Of a stretch of DNA of 64,000 nt, positions 26,440-37,367 are shown one piece after another (position 1 is the stretch's first letter; each line of letters opens with the position of its first letter). Origin of the DNA: Acetilactobacillus jinshanensis (lineage in GTDB: Bacteria > Bacillota > Bacilli > Lactobacillales > Lactobacillaceae). The position numbers and the translations under genes were made by a program. The stretch covers positions 1,054,001 to 1,118,000 of the forward strand of contig NZ_CP034726.1 in assembly GCF_004359375.1 (NCBI RefSeq), read 5' to 3'. The notes beneath the pieces were generated by a model. That model saw only the letters and a program-made list of their open reading frames with translations. It had not been told where the DNA came from and made no database searches.

Positions 26440-26574
26440 ATGTTAAAGAATAATGCTTTGTTAAACGGTACGTCTTCATTAGCACGAGCTTCTGCGTCAG
26501 CGTTCGGCAACGCATCCATTAAGGAACGATTGCTGATCGGCGGCAAACAGATGCTCGCTGGTGGGGCCGTCTAA
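26440..26574 (+). CDS. operon B second peptide, 44 aa
   Basis: The ATG at 26440 follows TAAGGAG by 9 nt. An in-frame upstream ATG at 26374 overlaps the first peptide gene and has no site, so I reject it. The peptide is Ala/Ser/Leu/Gly-rich and cationic (ASASAFGNASIKERLLIGGKQ) and ends GGAV. A hairpin CTAACT / AGTTAG (26571-26588) covers the stop, matching operon A. Function unknown. Confidence 0.55.
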   Translation: MLKNNALLNGTSSLARASASAFGNASIKERLLIGGKQMLAGGAV

Positions 26575-26901
26575 CTCCTGAAAGTTAGTTGCCTCCTATA
26601 CAATTACAATGAATAAACATTTAAGTGTGATAAGTAGTACGATCGCACCATGTGTGGATATTCTTTACGGAATTACTATGAATCGTTTTTAACTTCAATA
26701 ATTAATCTCGTTCAGAATTTAAGAAAGGGCGTCCAAGTAAGTTGGGCGCTCTTTTTTAGTTGGTTGATAAAATGGCGTTAATTTGCAAACATTATTTTAA
26801 TATTTCATAATATTATTAATATATTTTAAATAATTATCTGATATTTATATTTAATAGTTTATTATTATAAGTGTAAACAATATCACGAAAGGGAGATAAA
26901 A
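26575..26901 (+). other. 3' region of operon B and leader promoter region
   Basis: It holds the stop-codon hairpin, about 130 nt of untranslated RNA, the terminator at 26722-26757 and then a very AT-rich stretch in front of the leader peptide. A possible -10 (TATAAG) lies near 26874, without a good -35. Confidence 0.4.
26722..26757 (+). terminator. terminator of operon B
   Basis: AAAGGGCGTCCAA pairs with TTGGGCGCTCTTT (with G-U pairs), then a T-run. Confidence 0.75.
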
Positions 26902-26985
26902 ATGCTTAAACGAGTCAATGTTAACGTTGTCGTCTTAGTGCATACATTATTTCTAAAACGCTCGTGCGCTCAACAGCCTATTTAA
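26902..26985 (+). CDS. leader peptide of an attenuator, 27 aa
   Basis: The ATG follows AAAGGGAG by 8 nt. The peptide is MLKRVNVNVVVLVHTLFLK plus RSCAQQPI: six valines and two asparagines fall in codons 5-13, ahead of the first attenuator arm (26961-26967), which overlaps the end of the leader gene. This is the classic layout of an amino-acid-sensing leader. Confidence 0.6.
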   Translation: MLKRVNVNVVVLVHTLFLKRSCAQQPI

Positions 26986-27097
26986 GTATCTTTACATAAT
27001 CGTTCTGCACGAGTGATAACAATCGTGTGGAATCACATCATCGTTAATAAACTACGTATATAATGCCTCACGATTGTTATGAATTGTGAGGCTTTTT
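26961..27097 (+). promoter_or_regulatory. transcription attenuator with mutually exclusive stems
   Basis: Arm 1 CTCGTGC (26961-26967) pairs with arm 2 GCACGAG (27007-27013). Arm 2' ATAACAATCGTG (27016-27027) pairs perfectly with arm 3 CACGATTGTTAT (27069-27080). Arm 3' GCCTCAC (27065-27071) pairs with arm 4 GTGAGGC (27086-27092), followed by T5. So 1:2 and 3:4 (terminator) compete with 2:3 (antiterminator), as in trp-type attenuation. Ribosome stalling at the Val/Asn codons of the leader should favour read-through. Confidence 0.65.
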
Positions 27098-27119
27098 AAG
27101 TATCCACATACATAGTCAT

Positions 27120-27839
27120 ATGAGGCCTCGTATGACATCTTATAATGTTGATTATATTTATTTGGTTTTGAACAGAGAGGAACCTTTATATGTCAAAAGT
27201 TATGTCCCAAAGGTTAATGTCTCAAACGTAAATAATGTATCAAAATTCAATGTTGCTTCCATGCTGCACATGGTTAACCTGGTCAAGAATCTATCTAACA
27301 AGATGAATGTAGTTAGCGCCAACGTTAATTCTATCAAGCATAAAATTGACGTTAGTGATGTTAACGTCGTCCATGTTATGAACGTTGTTAGAAACTTAGA
27401 CGTTGTTAAGAACGTCGTAGCCGTTAAGGTCGTTCGTGCTCTTGAAAATGCCGTAGTTGCTAACAAAGCTGATGCTGTAAGCGTTAAGTTATTATCTAGC
27501 GTTGATCACGTTGCCGCTAATATGAATGATGTCCGTGTTAACTTAGTTAATATGGTATTAAGCGACGTCAAGATGATCAGTGCCGATGTTGACTCTGTTA
27601 ACTACGTTTATAATTCCAAGAGTGTTAACTTACGTGAAATCCGCAACATCAAGGTTAGCGTTGCTGCCATGAAGAGCGCTATTAAGAACATCAAAGTTAT
27701 CGTAAGTAACAGTGTTGTTGTTATGAACAGAATGTTAGATTACACCACCATGATTTTAGATAACCGTGGAGTATCTAAGAAGGTCGTTGATTTAGTTGAC
27801 CAGCTTCAGGTTAACATTGATCGTCGTGTTAATTATTAA
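27120..27839 (+). CDS. Val/Asn-rich helical protein of unknown function, about 200-239 aa
   Basis: Roughly a fifth of the residues are Val and many are Asn, in runs such as NVVHVMNVVRNLDVVKNVVAVKVV. Hydrophobic residues recur at helix spacing, so a long amphipathic helix bundle is likely. It has no signal peptide or membrane segment. Codon choice (GTT, AAC, CGT, TTA) resembles that of its neighbours. The start is unclear: ATGs at 27120 and 27132 lack a site, while AGAGAGGA (27174-27181) points to an ATG at 27190 that is out of frame and would join only if one base were missing near 27222-27228. It is controlled by the attenuator upstream and followed by tRNA-Val. Confidence 0.6.
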   Translation: MRPRMTSYNVDYIYLVLNREEPLYVKSYVPKVNVSNVNNVSKFNVASMLHMVNLVKNLSNKMNVVSANVNSIKHKIDVSDVNVVHVMNVVRNLDVVKNVVAVKVVRALENAVVANKADAVSVKLLSSVDHVAANMNDVRVNLVNMVLSDVKMISADVDSVNYVYNSKSVNLREIRNIKVSVAAMKSAIKNIKVIVSNSVVVMNRMLDYTTMILDNRGVSKKVVDLVDQLQVNIDRRVNY

Positions 27840-27861: not shown

Positions 27862-27888
27862 TTGATGCGTCAGTCATGTGTGTTATAA
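27862..27888 (+). promoter_or_regulatory. promoter of tRNA-Val
   Basis: TTGATG, 16-bp spacer, TATAAT, about 15 nt before the tRNA. Confidence 0.7.
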
Positions 27889-27900
27889 TTAGTGTGTCTT

Positions 27901-27973
27901 GGAGGATTAGCTCAGTTGGGAGAGCATCTGCCTTACAAGCAGGAGGTCATTGGTTCGAGCCCGATATCCTCCA
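27901..27973 (+). tRNA. tRNA-Val (UAC)
   Basis: Acceptor GGAGGAT / ATCCTCC with A73, D-arm AGCTCAGTTGGGAGAGC, anticodon loop CTTACAA with anticodon TAC and T-arm GGTTCGAGCC. It has its own promoter and lies 61 bp after the Val-rich gene. Confidence 0.96.
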
Positions 27974-28042
27974 TATTTTGTTATAACTTAAGCAATGCAT
28001 TATTAAAGGTTAGTCCCTTTGGTTATGCATTTAATCCATCAA

Positions 28043-28372: not shown

Positions 28373-28413
28373 TTGTGTGGGGTAAACATTTAACTTTTAA
28401 ATAGACCATACGA

Positions 28414-28442
28414 TTGACATAATTAGATACTTACGATATATT
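28414..28442 (+). promoter_or_regulatory. promoter of the antitoxin RNA
   Basis: Near-consensus TTGACA (28414-28419), 17-bp spacer, TATATT (28437-28442). Confidence 0.85.
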
Positions 28443-28448
28443 AAAAGT

Positions 28449-28513
28449 GCAGAGAGATTAGAACAAACGTGTGAATGTTTTTTACCTGTTGCCAATTGGT
28501 AACAGGTTTTTTT
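28449..28513 (+). ncRNA. antitoxin RNA of an Fst-type type I toxin-antitoxin system, about 65 nt
   Basis: The transcript starts about 7 nt after the -10 and ends at the perfect hairpin ACCTGTTGCCAA / TTGGTAACAGGT (28484-28507) plus T-run. Its first 32 nt are a near copy of the plus-strand sequence at 28630-28665, so it is complementary to the toxin mRNA start region. The ~65-nt length equals that of RNA II of the pAD1 par system. Confidence 0.75.
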
Positions 28514-28515
28514 AT

Positions 28516-28547
28516 CAAAAAAGGGCATGGATATTAACCACGCCCTT
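28516..28547 (-). terminator. terminator of the toxin mRNA
   Basis: On the minus strand, AAGGGCGTGG pairs with CCATGCCCTT, then a T6 run. It faces the antitoxin terminator. Confidence 0.75.
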
Positions 28548-28550
28548 AAG

Positions 28551-28670
28551 TTAATTCTTATGGTGGGAATGGCGCTTCATCCAATTAGTGATTATAAAAT
28601 ACGCTAAATTGGAAATTAAGCCCAAGACTGCAGAGAAAATTAGAACTATAAACGTATGAATGTTTATCAC
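28551..28670 (-). CDS. Fst/Ldr-like type I toxin, 36-39 aa membrane peptide
   Basis: Short peptide with one transmembrane helix (FIVLIFSAVLGLISNLAYF), then NWMKRHSHHKN. The W-x-KR charged tail after a single helix is the hallmark of the Fst family. The start is ambiguous: GTG at 28670 lies inside the AGAGGTG site itself, while that site is 6 nt from an in-frame ATT (28661). Its predicted mRNA runs from about 28710 to 28520, near the ~210 nt of RNA I in par. Such toxins disturb the membrane when the antitoxin RNA fades. Confidence 0.75.
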   Translation of the reverse strand: MINIHTFIVLIFSAVLGLISNLAYFIITNWMKRHSHHKN

Positions 28671-28763
28671 CTCTTTTGCTATCAAGTAGCTGGGACAAAA
28701 AGATGTAGCCTAACAAAATAATCTTATCATAATTAAAGATGATTGAATATCTGTTATTCTATA

Positions 28764-31187: not shown

Positions 31188-31390
31188 ATGAACTACTCGG
31201 TACTAAAGTACCGAGTTTCTAGCTTAGCACCTTACGTACCTGTTCTTGGGAACGCTCGTGCTTATTCAACACACAACTGTAGAGAAGTATCTTGAACAGA
31301 GGTAGAGTTGTTAGCCATGGCTTGTTCCAAGCCTAAATGCAGTATATTAATACTGGCATTCACATCTCTGTCTTGTTTAGTATGGCAATA
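31188..31390 (-). ncRNA. predicted omega RNA (reRNA) of TnpB copy 2
   Basis: By family rule the 3' end of tnpB plus the right end forms the scaffold, and the guide is the flanking DNA on the minus strand from 31187, starting AATTGACAACAGTAA. This is the pox 5' leader. Confidence 0.45.
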
Positions 31391-32407
31391 CTGGCAAACG
31401 AAGCTACGAATATCCAGTGGCTTTACGCCCGTGTTTTTACCACAAGTATGACAAATACGGCTAGTATCCTTAGGATTAACTAGCTCGAGATGCTTACCAT
31501 ACCATACACACTTATAGGCTAATAATGTCCTAAAGTGATACCACGAAGCACAGGCAATCGCCCGAGCTAGTCTATGATTATGTTGCATATTAGAGACTTT
31601 TAGGTCTTCGATTGCTATGAAATCATAATGCTTTACTAGCCATGTGGTTAGAATTTGTAGATAATTAATCCGTTGATTCTTTATATGACGGTTAATTTTA
31701 GCTACTTCACGCTTTGCTTTCTGATAGTTATGATATTCAACTAAAGTTTTGACGTGATGGTTAGGCATCTTCTTCTGGAGATGCTGATTATATCGAATAT
31801 CCTTAATGGCATCACGTCTACGCCTAGCTGATAGGATTTGCCATTTGTGCTTTCTAGCTTCATTTGCTTTATTGTAATATTTAAAGTTCCATTTCATATC
31901 AGTAGATAAGATAGCGAGGTTGCTTAATCCTACATCAATTCCAATTGCTTGATTCGTCTTCGGCAATGATACTTGGTTCTCGTATTCTACCGTAAGACTT
32001 GCGACGTAGTCTCCAGTGGAGTCATGTGTGACTGTGACCTGTTTAATCTTACCGACTAGTGGTTGATTGAAATGGACTTTCATATATCCTAACTTAGCCA
32101 ATTTTAATACGTGTGGCTTATTAATCTGTTTGGGAATACTGGTAGTCCGATAGGACTGCTTATAATATTTCTTAGACTTGAACTTTGGCGCTTTGGAACG
32201 GTGCTGAAACAGATTCTGATACGACTGGTACAAGATGCCTAGTTCACATTGAAGCGAACGGCTGTCAGCATAACTAAGCCACTTAGCTTTTTCAATCGCT
32301 AAGAAGTGGTTCCAGATGAACCGAATGTCTCCGAGCTGTTGGTTTAGCCACGTTTGTTGGTATTGATTAGGATACAACTTTGCTTTAATTCCTTTTGTAA
32401 TTAACAT
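31262..32407 (-). CDS. tnpB: TnpB with an internal 38-residue deletion, 381 aa
   Basis: Homolog of the copy 1 TnpB; RuvC residues (GIDVGL, AIEDLKV, DRDVNAS) and both CxxC pairs are intact. It lacks the basic segment at residues 43-80 of copy 1, with the junction at Lys-Trp in both, so the loss is in frame. That segment belongs to the N-terminal REC/wedge part that handles TAM and guide duplex, so nuclease activity may be reduced or altered. The start is the ATG at 32407 after GGAGGTG; a GTG 9 nt upstream lies inside that site. Confidence 0.9.
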   Translation of the reverse strand: MLITKGIKAKLYPNQYQQTWLNQQLGDIRFIWNHFLAIEKAKWLSYADSRSLQCELGILYQSYQNLFQHRSKAPKFKSKKYYKQSYRTTSIPKQINKPHVLKLAKLGYMKVHFNQPLVGKIKQVTVTHDSTGDYVASLTVEYENQVSLPKTNQAIGIDVGLSNLAILSTDMKWNFKYYNKANEARKHKWQILSARRRRDAIKDIRYNQHLQKKMPNHHVKTLVEYHNYQKAKREVAKINRHIKNQRINYLQILTTWLVKHYDFIAIEDLKVSNMQHNHRLARAIACASWYHFRTLLAYKCVWYGKHLELVNPKDTSRICHTCGKNTGVKPLDIRSFVCQYCHTKQDRDVNASINILHLGLEQAMANNSTSVQDTSLQLCVE

Positions 32408-32498
32408 TATTTTCACCTCCTTAATGCACTTATATTATATCACATATGACTGTTAATATATCAGATAGAATGCTATTATTACCAGTGTATAGGAGCTG

Positions 32499-32912
32499 AT
32501 GTATATGTTAGTTAAAAATCGTACTAATGTGCATAATCTCAATTACCATTTAGTTTGGATCACCAAATATCGTAAGATGGTATTTACTACTAAAGACCTA
32601 CAGCATGCTATGAAACGAATTATTAAGTTTATTGCTGATAATCATCACATCGTAATTCAAAAGATAGAGGTCTTACCAGACCATATTCATGTATTGGTCA
32701 GTTTTCCACCAGCTGATGCTATTTCATCTGTTATTAAAACTTTTAAAGGCTTATCCGCTAGGATATGGTTTCAGCAATTTCCAGAAACTAAGAAGAAGCT
32801 ATGGAGCGGTCATTTATGGTCACCTACATTTTATGCAGGTACCGTTGGTGACATGTCTAGAAAAATGATTGAGAAATATATTAACAATCAATTAATTAAC
32901 TATAAACGTTAA
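32499..32912 (+). CDS. tnpA: TnpA, Y1 HUH transposase, 137 aa
   Basis: Close homolog of the copy 1 transposase with His62-Ile-His64 and Tyr127 intact. AGGAG lies 3 nt from the first ATG and 9 nt from the second (two codons later), so translation may start at the second. Confidence 0.93.
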   Translation: MYMLVKNRTNVHNLNYHLVWITKYRKMVFTTKDLQHAMKRIIKFIADNHHIVIQKIEVLPDHIHVLVSFPPADAISSVIKTFKGLSARIWFQQFPETKKKLWSGHLWSPTFYAGTVGDMSRKMIEKYINNQLINYKR

Positions 32913-37214: not shown

Positions 37215-37283
37215 TAAGAAATTTTTGTTCAGTTATTGACGTAATCATGTAAAATTGGTATTCTATAGTCACACACATAGTAA

Positions 37284-37354
37284 TTGCCTATATAATGCCA
37301 AGATGTGGTTGGTCAGTTTCTACCCGGAACCGTATAAGTCCGGACTATAAGCAA
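37284..37354 (+). promoter_or_regulatory. purine riboswitch, predicted guanine/hypoxanthine class
   Basis: It matches the purine aptamer: P1 TTGC-TATA / TATA-GCAA, then ATAATG, P2 with loop GTTGGTCAG, the joining TTTCTACC, P3 CCGGA... and the closing GACTATA. The position that distinguishes ligands is C (GACTAT), as in guanine-type switches, rather than U as in adenine ones. It is followed by a terminator, so it should act as an OFF switch. Confidence 0.88.
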
Positions 37355-37367
37355 AAGAAATTGAAAG

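Follow-up and report, generated by a model that had tools for sequence, protein, structure and literature searches.

The leader region and its surroundings

The window is the whole stretch of 64,000 nucleotides analysed here (positions 1,054,001 to 1,118,000 of contig NZ_CP034726.1 of Acetilactobacillus jinshanensis), and all coordinates are counted from its first nucleotide. A short leader ORF in the window is followed by a set of RNA arms, an intrinsic terminator, an open frame for a valine-rich orphan protein (P0002) and a tRNA-Val gene (Table 1). No terminator-like site was found between the orphan frame and the tRNA gene. A small ORF at 26440–26574 (MLKNNALLNGTSSLARASASAFGNASIKERLLIGGKQMLAGGAV), behind a Shine–Dalgarno (SD)-like stretch, had no Pfam match at E 1. 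Elsewhere in the window, a short hydrophobic peptide on the minus strand at 28400–28700 faces a strong promoter-like site (28414–28442) and a terminator on the plus strand, an arrangement that we take to resemble a type I toxin–antitoxin locus. Adjoining TnpB-like and TnpA-like frames at 31262–32912 presumably belong to an IS200/IS605-type element, and a purine riboswitch at 37268–37367 scored 55.1 bits against a cut-off of 37. For two window proteins, the best plasmid matches are in Nicoliella spurrieriana (51.9% and 64.9% identity); the 18 further matches listed are from lactobacilli or enterococci, as would suit a member of the Lactobacillaceae.

Table 1. Features of the leader region and the adjoining genes in the window.
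Feature	Position	Strand	Remark
Leader-peptide Shine–Dalgarno, AGGGAGA	26890..26896	+	5 nt ahead of ATG 26902
Leader peptide, 27 codons + stop	26902..26985	+	ATG 26902, stop 26983–26985; product MLKRVNVNVVVLVHTLFLKRSCAQQPI
Control codons, 6 Val within residues 5–13	26914..26940	+	
Arm A, CGCTCGTGCG, within leader ORF	26959..26968	+	Partner 27006–27015; 1/300 shuffles as good
Arm B	27003..27015	+	Partner A via 27006–27015 or C via 27003–27012
Arm C	27016..27032	+	Partner B via 27023–27032 or D via 27016–27027
Arm D	27069..27080	+	Partner C (antiterminator, 12 bp) or E (terminator)
D:E intrinsic terminator with T-run	27065..27097	+	Stem 27065–27092, 11 pairs in terminator scan
Val-rich orphan protein, open frame (P0002)	27120..27839	+	
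tRNA-Val, anticodon TAC	27900..27974	+	60 nt past orphan ORF; promoter-like site 27862–27889

The leader has an SD sequence, an ATG and a run of Val codons. The sequence-only reading had described 27 codons with VNVNVVVLV at residues 5–13 and called this a valine/asparagine leader. Both the position and the reading of the ORF were confirmed, and the valine run stands, but Asn, with two codons, is probably not a signal here. Asn-rich leaders are present elsewhere in the genome (L053 and L086). For the window leader alone, the enrichment of Val had a p-value of 0.009, or 0.19 when corrected for 20 residues, which is not significant; the statistical significance is carried by the class of 25 elements described below. 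All six Val codons lie >14 nt upstream of arm A, the last one starting 21 nt before the arm, with 18 nt in between. With the footprint usually attributed to a stalled ribosome, a ribosome held at these codons should therefore leave arm A free. Arm A lies 15–24 nt before the leader stop, and with the same footprint a ribosome that has reached the stop would cover only part of it, which counts against the five-arm switch proposed below.

Arrangement of the RNA arms

The region 26880–27110 had a better predicted fold than any of its 200 dinucleotide shuffles (z = −3.79). Three stems had been read from the sequence as 1:2, 2:3 and 3:4 of a textbook trp-type attenuator, and all three are present. 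The first, here A:B, pairs CGCTCGTGCG (26959–26968) with TGCACGAGTG (27006–27015), a match equalled by one of 300 mononucleotide shuffles; the second, C:D, is a perfect 12-bp stem between ATAACAATCGTG (27016–27027) and CACGATTGTTAT (27069–27080); the third is the D:E terminator with its T-run. The four-arm logic itself did not hold up. In such an attenuator, a ribosome on the Val codons would cover arm 1 and thereby free 2:3 to form against 3:4. However, the 1:2 and 2:3 stems are adjacent (27006–27015 and 27016–27027) and have no base in common, and are therefore not alternatives. Moreover, with the usual ribosome footprint, the Val codons are too far upstream for the stalled ribosome to cover arm 1.

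An overlapping third stem is thus needed, which gives five arms (A–E). The candidate is a B:C hairpin, 27003–27012 with 27023–27032, in which 10 of 10 positions pair, two of them as G-U, when the sequence is read by the alignment columns. B:C was absent from the minimum-energy fold of 26880–27110, and its weak prediction in the window, like the existence of the named stems, suits a four-arm switch. The same hairpin, however, is conserved and covaries across 27 sequences, and we consider the four-arm alternative very unlikely. The leader, the terminator, amino-acid-specific attenuation and C:D exclusive of D:E remain from the original proposal; the further competing stems are A:B and the added B:C, which is weakly predicted in the window.

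A class of 25 related elements in the genome

Covariance models were built from three leaders (R1), from 16 (R2) and from 27 sequences (R3; 22 from the same genome and five from other genera); the E-values of these searches are rough. With R3, 25 elements were found in the genome at E ≤ 1e-4, every one of them with a leader ORF: the window element, L008, L009, L044–L056, L074–L078, L086, L097, L138 and L139. The R3 alignment contains 22 of the 25 (all but L056, L138 and L139), and the alignment A6 is without L056, L094, L138 and L139. The first match beyond the threshold, L100 (1.1e-4), lacks a leader and is a gene-end terminator, as were most of the weaker leaderless matches that were read; some other weaker matches are antisense copies. 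L098, L106 and L141 were left outside the class, having degenerate arms or no clear leader. Aminotransferase and BCAT-like genes lie behind the degenerate elements L098 and L106 and are apparently frameshifted, hinting at assembly indels or real decay.

The leader ORFs of the class have a purine-rich, SD-like stretch ahead of them and end near the arms. The SD-like stretches are uneven, with weak ones in L047, L050, L051 and L074; for L074, another frame also offers a candidate leader. The control-codon runs are of Val, Ile, Ala, Trp, Ser, Asp, Asn, Arg, Phe, His or Tyr. A residue was enriched at the 0.05 level after 20-fold correction in 13 of the 25 leaders; L054 has no clear control residue, and L097, assigned to Asp, is enriched most strongly in Leu. 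Among the 24 elements with an assigned residue, 154 of 180 control codons are >14 nt upstream of arm A. The spacing from A to B is tighter (sd 7.3) than that from the stop codon to B (sd 13.2). In 14 of the 25 leaders, some residues are encoded by codons other than the commonest synonym in the window genes. GTC is used for Val (22/48, against a background of 23%), GCG for Ala (13/23, against 9%) and CGA for Arg (18/30, against 25%); the commonest synonyms are kept for Ile (ATT, 50/62), Asn (AAT, 31/39) and Asp (GAT, 14/20).

Twenty-two of the 25 elements lie ahead of known or look-alike genes for amino-acid or peptide uptake, biosynthesis or charging, the other three being the orphan genes. 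Twenty downstream proteins were compared with NCBIfam at E ≤ 1e-20, and 18 matched. Above the family cut-offs, an Asn leader precedes an asparaginyl-tRNA synthetase (549.7 bits, cut-off 414), an Asp leader a PEP carboxylase (466.4, cut-off 146.05), a Tyr leader a DAHP synthase (408.5, cut-off 335) and an Arg leader an ABC transporter with a polar-amino-acid permease domain (L144/L076; 97.4, cut-off 42.2). The best families fell below the cut-off for a ThrP-like permease behind a Ser leader, a GltP-like symporter behind an Asp leader, class I aminotransferases behind Ala and Phe leaders, APC amino-acid permeases behind Val, Ile, Trp and Asn leaders, and Opp4A-like peptide-binding proteins behind Ile, Arg, His and Val/Leu leaders. 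The same was true of an ornithine/aspartate-type aminotransferase that follows the Arg leader of L139 behind a small ORF, and of a PGDH-like protein behind L054. At this threshold, no NCBIfam match was found for the first gene behind L055 (102 aa; a permease-like frame is next) or for the MFS-like protein behind the Tyr leader of L077. The genes downstream of L051 and L052 are Opp-like by eye. The leader residue thus agrees with the target gene for many members; the window target is an orphan protein.

We considered the possibility that these elements are riboswitches or protein-binding elements that act independently of leader translation, since the similar Rfam trpB motif has been proposed as a riboswitch (PMC11109978). 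However, all 25 elements have a leader ORF, the residue run varies with the gene while the arms stay constant, and no Rfam family scored above its cut-off over any of the 25. This makes such an element highly improbable. The presence of 24 more such elements in the genome, and of leaders in other genera, gives good support to the reading as an amino-acid-specific, ribosome-mediated transcription attenuator, and on this comparative evidence the window element is a real attenuator, one of a large family in the same genome.

Covariation of the stems

In an alignment of 16 sequences from the genome, 96.2% of the cells of B:C and D:E were paired and 14 of 20 pairs had changed on both sides; for C:D, the values were 99.1% and five of seven. 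With 27 sequences (22 from this genome, five from other genera), they were 96.5% and 17 of 20 for B:C and D:E, and 96.8% and six of seven for C:D. None of 500 shuffles reached any of the covariation scores, and sliding the partners reduced pairing to 30–48%. Because B:C and D:E are part of the models that retrieved the members, and the alignment columns were set by hand, these counts favour the structure. C:D was not part of the R2 or R3 models and is thus the more independent test. The A:B stem was assessed element by element: three or fewer of 300 mononucleotide shuffles were as good in 15 of the 25 elements, and the weakest were L047 (47 shuffles as good), L139 (40), L077 (34), L078 (33) and L044 (26).

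Pairing kept in relatives had been put forward as a check on the sequence-only reading. No orthologue of the locus was found outside the genome in the contigs and family genomes searched; the arms are, however, kept and covarying in the paralogous elements of the same genome and in elements of relatives ahead of other genes.

Proposed switch and folding tests

We consider it probable that the window element is a five-arm leader-peptide transcription attenuator, most likely sensing charged tRNA-Val and one of 25 relatives in the genome. When Val-tRNA is short, a ribosome translating the leader would stall at the Val codons upstream of arm A. A:B would then form, leaving arm C free to pair with arm D; C:D would block the D:E terminator, and transcription would continue into the orphan gene, the presumed target. 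When Val-tRNA is plentiful, the ribosome would run over arm A, B:C and D:E would form and transcription would stop.

Folding was predicted for RNAs halted before arm E, with arm A either free or masked. The pairing of arm D with upstream sequence was higher with arm A free in 18 of the 25 elements, equal in six and lower in one. In the window, it was 0.71 in either state, and arm B showed a downstream pairing of 0.07 when arm A was masked. When arm E was included, a free arm A did not lower the terminator: it was lower in three of the 25 elements, equal in 19 and higher in three. The three increases (L008, 0.53 vs. 0.01; L047, 0.80 vs. 0.03; L086, 0.81 vs. 0.51) are opposite to the model. Since the terminator does not respond to arm A in these predictions, the switch, if real, would be kinetic. 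By these folding predictions, other elements exemplify the switch better than the one in the window.

The orphan protein and its paralogues

The gene behind the leader had been called non-biosynthetic, and this was borne out: its product is an orphan protein with 54 Val among 219 residues (25%). For comparison, the mean and maximum contents in 37 other window ORFs are 7.2% and 10.8% for Val, and 7.6% and 11.7% for Ile. Two paralogues of P0002 lie in the same 1.62-Mb genome, each with an upstream leader, similar arms and a terminator, and this set of three paralogous orphan genes, all with the same kind of leader and arms, supports the five-arm reading. The L008 protein has 126 Ile among 354 residues (36%), with two Val and two Leu, and the L009 protein 30 Ile and 19 Val among 211. 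The leaders are of Val in the window and L008 and of Ile in L009. The rule that the leader residue is the main residue of the protein fails at L008, where a Val leader precedes an Ile-rich protein, and the opposite rule, with the sensed residue avoided in the protein, holds for L008 alone. No tRNA gene was found at the L008 and L009 loci. Hydrophobic periodicity peaked at 105° in the window protein, 100° in L009 and 120° in L008 (a three-residue repeat), values that would suit helices, and a single-sequence AlphaFold prediction was all helix with a pLDDT of 45.8.

No homologue was found with P0002 in genome contigs or plasmids, nor with the alignment A1 in genome or viral contigs, in searches from which records very near the source genome may have been excluded. 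The genus has no further genome. Among 201 family genomes, P0002 matched only its own. A1 matched eight of 397, of which the seven others (E 2.6e-4 to 9.9e-4, inside long frames) were taken as chance. Pfam gave no match for L008 or L009 and the PDB none for A1; a BLOC1_2 match to the window protein was discounted at 18.3 bits against a cut-off of 33.4.

In both paralogues, the starting ATG is preceded by an SD-like sequence. The equivalent ATG in the window (27190, behind GAGAGGAA) is in another frame, which reads MSKVMSQRLMSQT and then stops after 13 codons; the window gene may be broken, frameshifting or misassembled. This mismatch, together with the weakness of B:C in the predicted ensemble, would fit a relic, in which a duplicated leader-and-arm unit sits before a decaying orphan gene and has lost its use. 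However, the sequence for all four helices is present, and the frame is open for ≈214 codons and keeps residues in common with the paralogues. L098 and L106 are also apparently frameshifted, so that assembly errors are possible. We regard a relic as distinctly unlikely.

Making a Val-rich protein during a shortage of Val looks self-defeating, and this counts against the five-arm reading as proposed. If the trio had the same arms but an opposite or weakened polarity, the composition of the orphan proteins would be explained: read-through would be favoured when Val or Ile is plentiful, as a test of sufficiency. In these three elements, arm A starts so far before the leader stop that a ribosome finishing the leader would leave it largely free. 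Relative to the stop, the arm begins at −24 in the window, −33 in L008 and −36 in L009, compared to −18 to +8 in 20 of the 22 other elements. The predicted folding of the window is insensitive to arm A, and the L008 terminator is likelier with arm A free. However, a Trp leader (L046, −37) and an Arg leader (L050, −27) ahead of transport genes have the same geometry, and the A-to-B spacing of the trio is inside the range of the other elements. Opposite polarity is thus an unlikely alternative, but one with some weight.

With the polarity of the five-arm model retained, the trio might represent a branched-chain amino-acid response whose regulated product, probably a helical protein, is tuned to one branched-chain residue. 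Such an ORF could serve as a sink or, through its hungry codons, as an alarm that amplifies the starvation signal. The derepressed ORF's codons for the scarce residue would hold ribosomes with uncharged tRNA, perhaps involving the adjacent tRNA-Val gene at the window locus. We consider this doubtful.

Occurrence in relatives

At E ≤ 0.001, R2 matched seven of 150 relatives, including the source genome, with at least 20 matches in the latter and two or fewer in any other (up to 25 candidates per genome). R3 at E ≤ 1e-4 matched 16 of 397 family genomes, again including the source genome, which had at least nine matches; the others had at most three each, antisense matches included (best nine candidates per genome). 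In the order, three of 295 genomes matched R3, one being the source (best 13 candidates per genome). Of 14 relative loci from the R3 family search, ten had a leader, L124 had none, and L123, L132 and L133 were ambiguous; no leader was seen at L146.

Sixteen loci with leaders were read, spread over seven other genera of the same family. Eight have runs of Tyr, Phe or Trp, and the rest are of Val, Ile, Leu, Ser or His. By eye, the genes behind the aromatic runs are presumably aminotransferases (RYYYFWFFHKHL), DAHP synthase (SYYYYQPR), shikimate dehydrogenase (YYYYWFMK) and transketolase-like genes (YYYYWFF). In L127, L129 and L130, the geometry differs, the leader stop being 77–85 nt from arm B. 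In another family of the order, an FYYFWFF leader (L145) precedes what is by eye an aminotransferase gene. As judged from these searches, this kind of element is not confined to the source genome, whereas its expansion is seen only there.

Comparison with known systems

T-boxes (RF00230) cause antitermination upon amino-acid shortage by sensing tRNA directly. In the proposed model, the present class would likewise act on shortage, but via leader translation. No T-box match was found in the window. Besides the attenuators, the genome yielded 26 T-box matches (E ≤ 0.001), and five genes have an attenuator and a T-box in tandem upstream. The T-box follows the attenuator in L050 (L109), L051 (L108) and L076 (L144), and precedes it in L077 and L138; four of these five T-boxes are below the Rfam cut-off of 93 bits, at 68–89. 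The Leu/phe leader RF01743, a presumed peptide attenuator, gave no match in the window at E 10 and none at the other loci at the thresholds used. It is a cis-regulatory leader RNA of Lactococcus lactis, in the Lactobacillales (PMC2864571).

The trpB motif (RF04312) is presented as a strong riboswitch candidate for which an attenuator was not ruled out (PMC11109978). There, the right shoulder of a hairpin is also the antiterminator and is followed by a terminator, which resembles B:C, C:D and D:E of the class, but the arm sequences differ. The window had no match to RF04312 at E 10, and the best scores among class members, 35.2 bits for L074 in the same genome and 39.3 for L089 in a relative, were below the cut-off of 59. 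Among 120 genomes searched, 70 had RF04312 matches at E ≤ 0.01, 16 of them above the cut-off. Twelve of the 13 matches with the lowest E-values (L110–L121) were inspected, and all 12 have an SD-preceded short ORF just upstream that carries one or two Trp codons towards its end, e.g., TWQNWRR; only visual inspection showed pairing between the end of this ORF and the hairpin. This suggests, from the upstream ORFs, that the trpB motif is itself a Trp leader-peptide attenuator.

In the available parts of the literature, leader attenuators in Firmicutes are described for single pathways, and T-boxes are the common device in the Lactobacillales (PMC9413887, PMC2864571, PMC2965389, PMC11109978). His leader attenuators of some Firmicutes (PMC9413887, PMC2965389) and a Leu-rich attenuator of S. 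aureus (PMC5794164) are Gram-positive leader-peptide attenuators like those of the class, but as far as those texts were available they serve single pathways, and the accessible parts of these three papers describe no genome-wide set with shared arms. No published account of such a class was recognised in the literature searched, which mostly excluded subscription journals. In a group where T-boxes are usual, this genome carries 25 ribosome-mediated attenuators that share one design and cover eleven amino acids. The leader peptide can therefore be read as a label for what the transporters and enzymes act on, while the Val- and Ile-rich orphan proteins pose a question of their own.

The trp, his, ilv and leu attenuators of Proteobacteria consist of a short leader with control codons, mutually exclusive stems and an intrinsic terminator, and are amino-acid-specific. 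The class described here has these features in common with them, but has five arms, most of its control codons upstream of arm A and a different parity, and re-uses one arm design for many amino acids in one genome.
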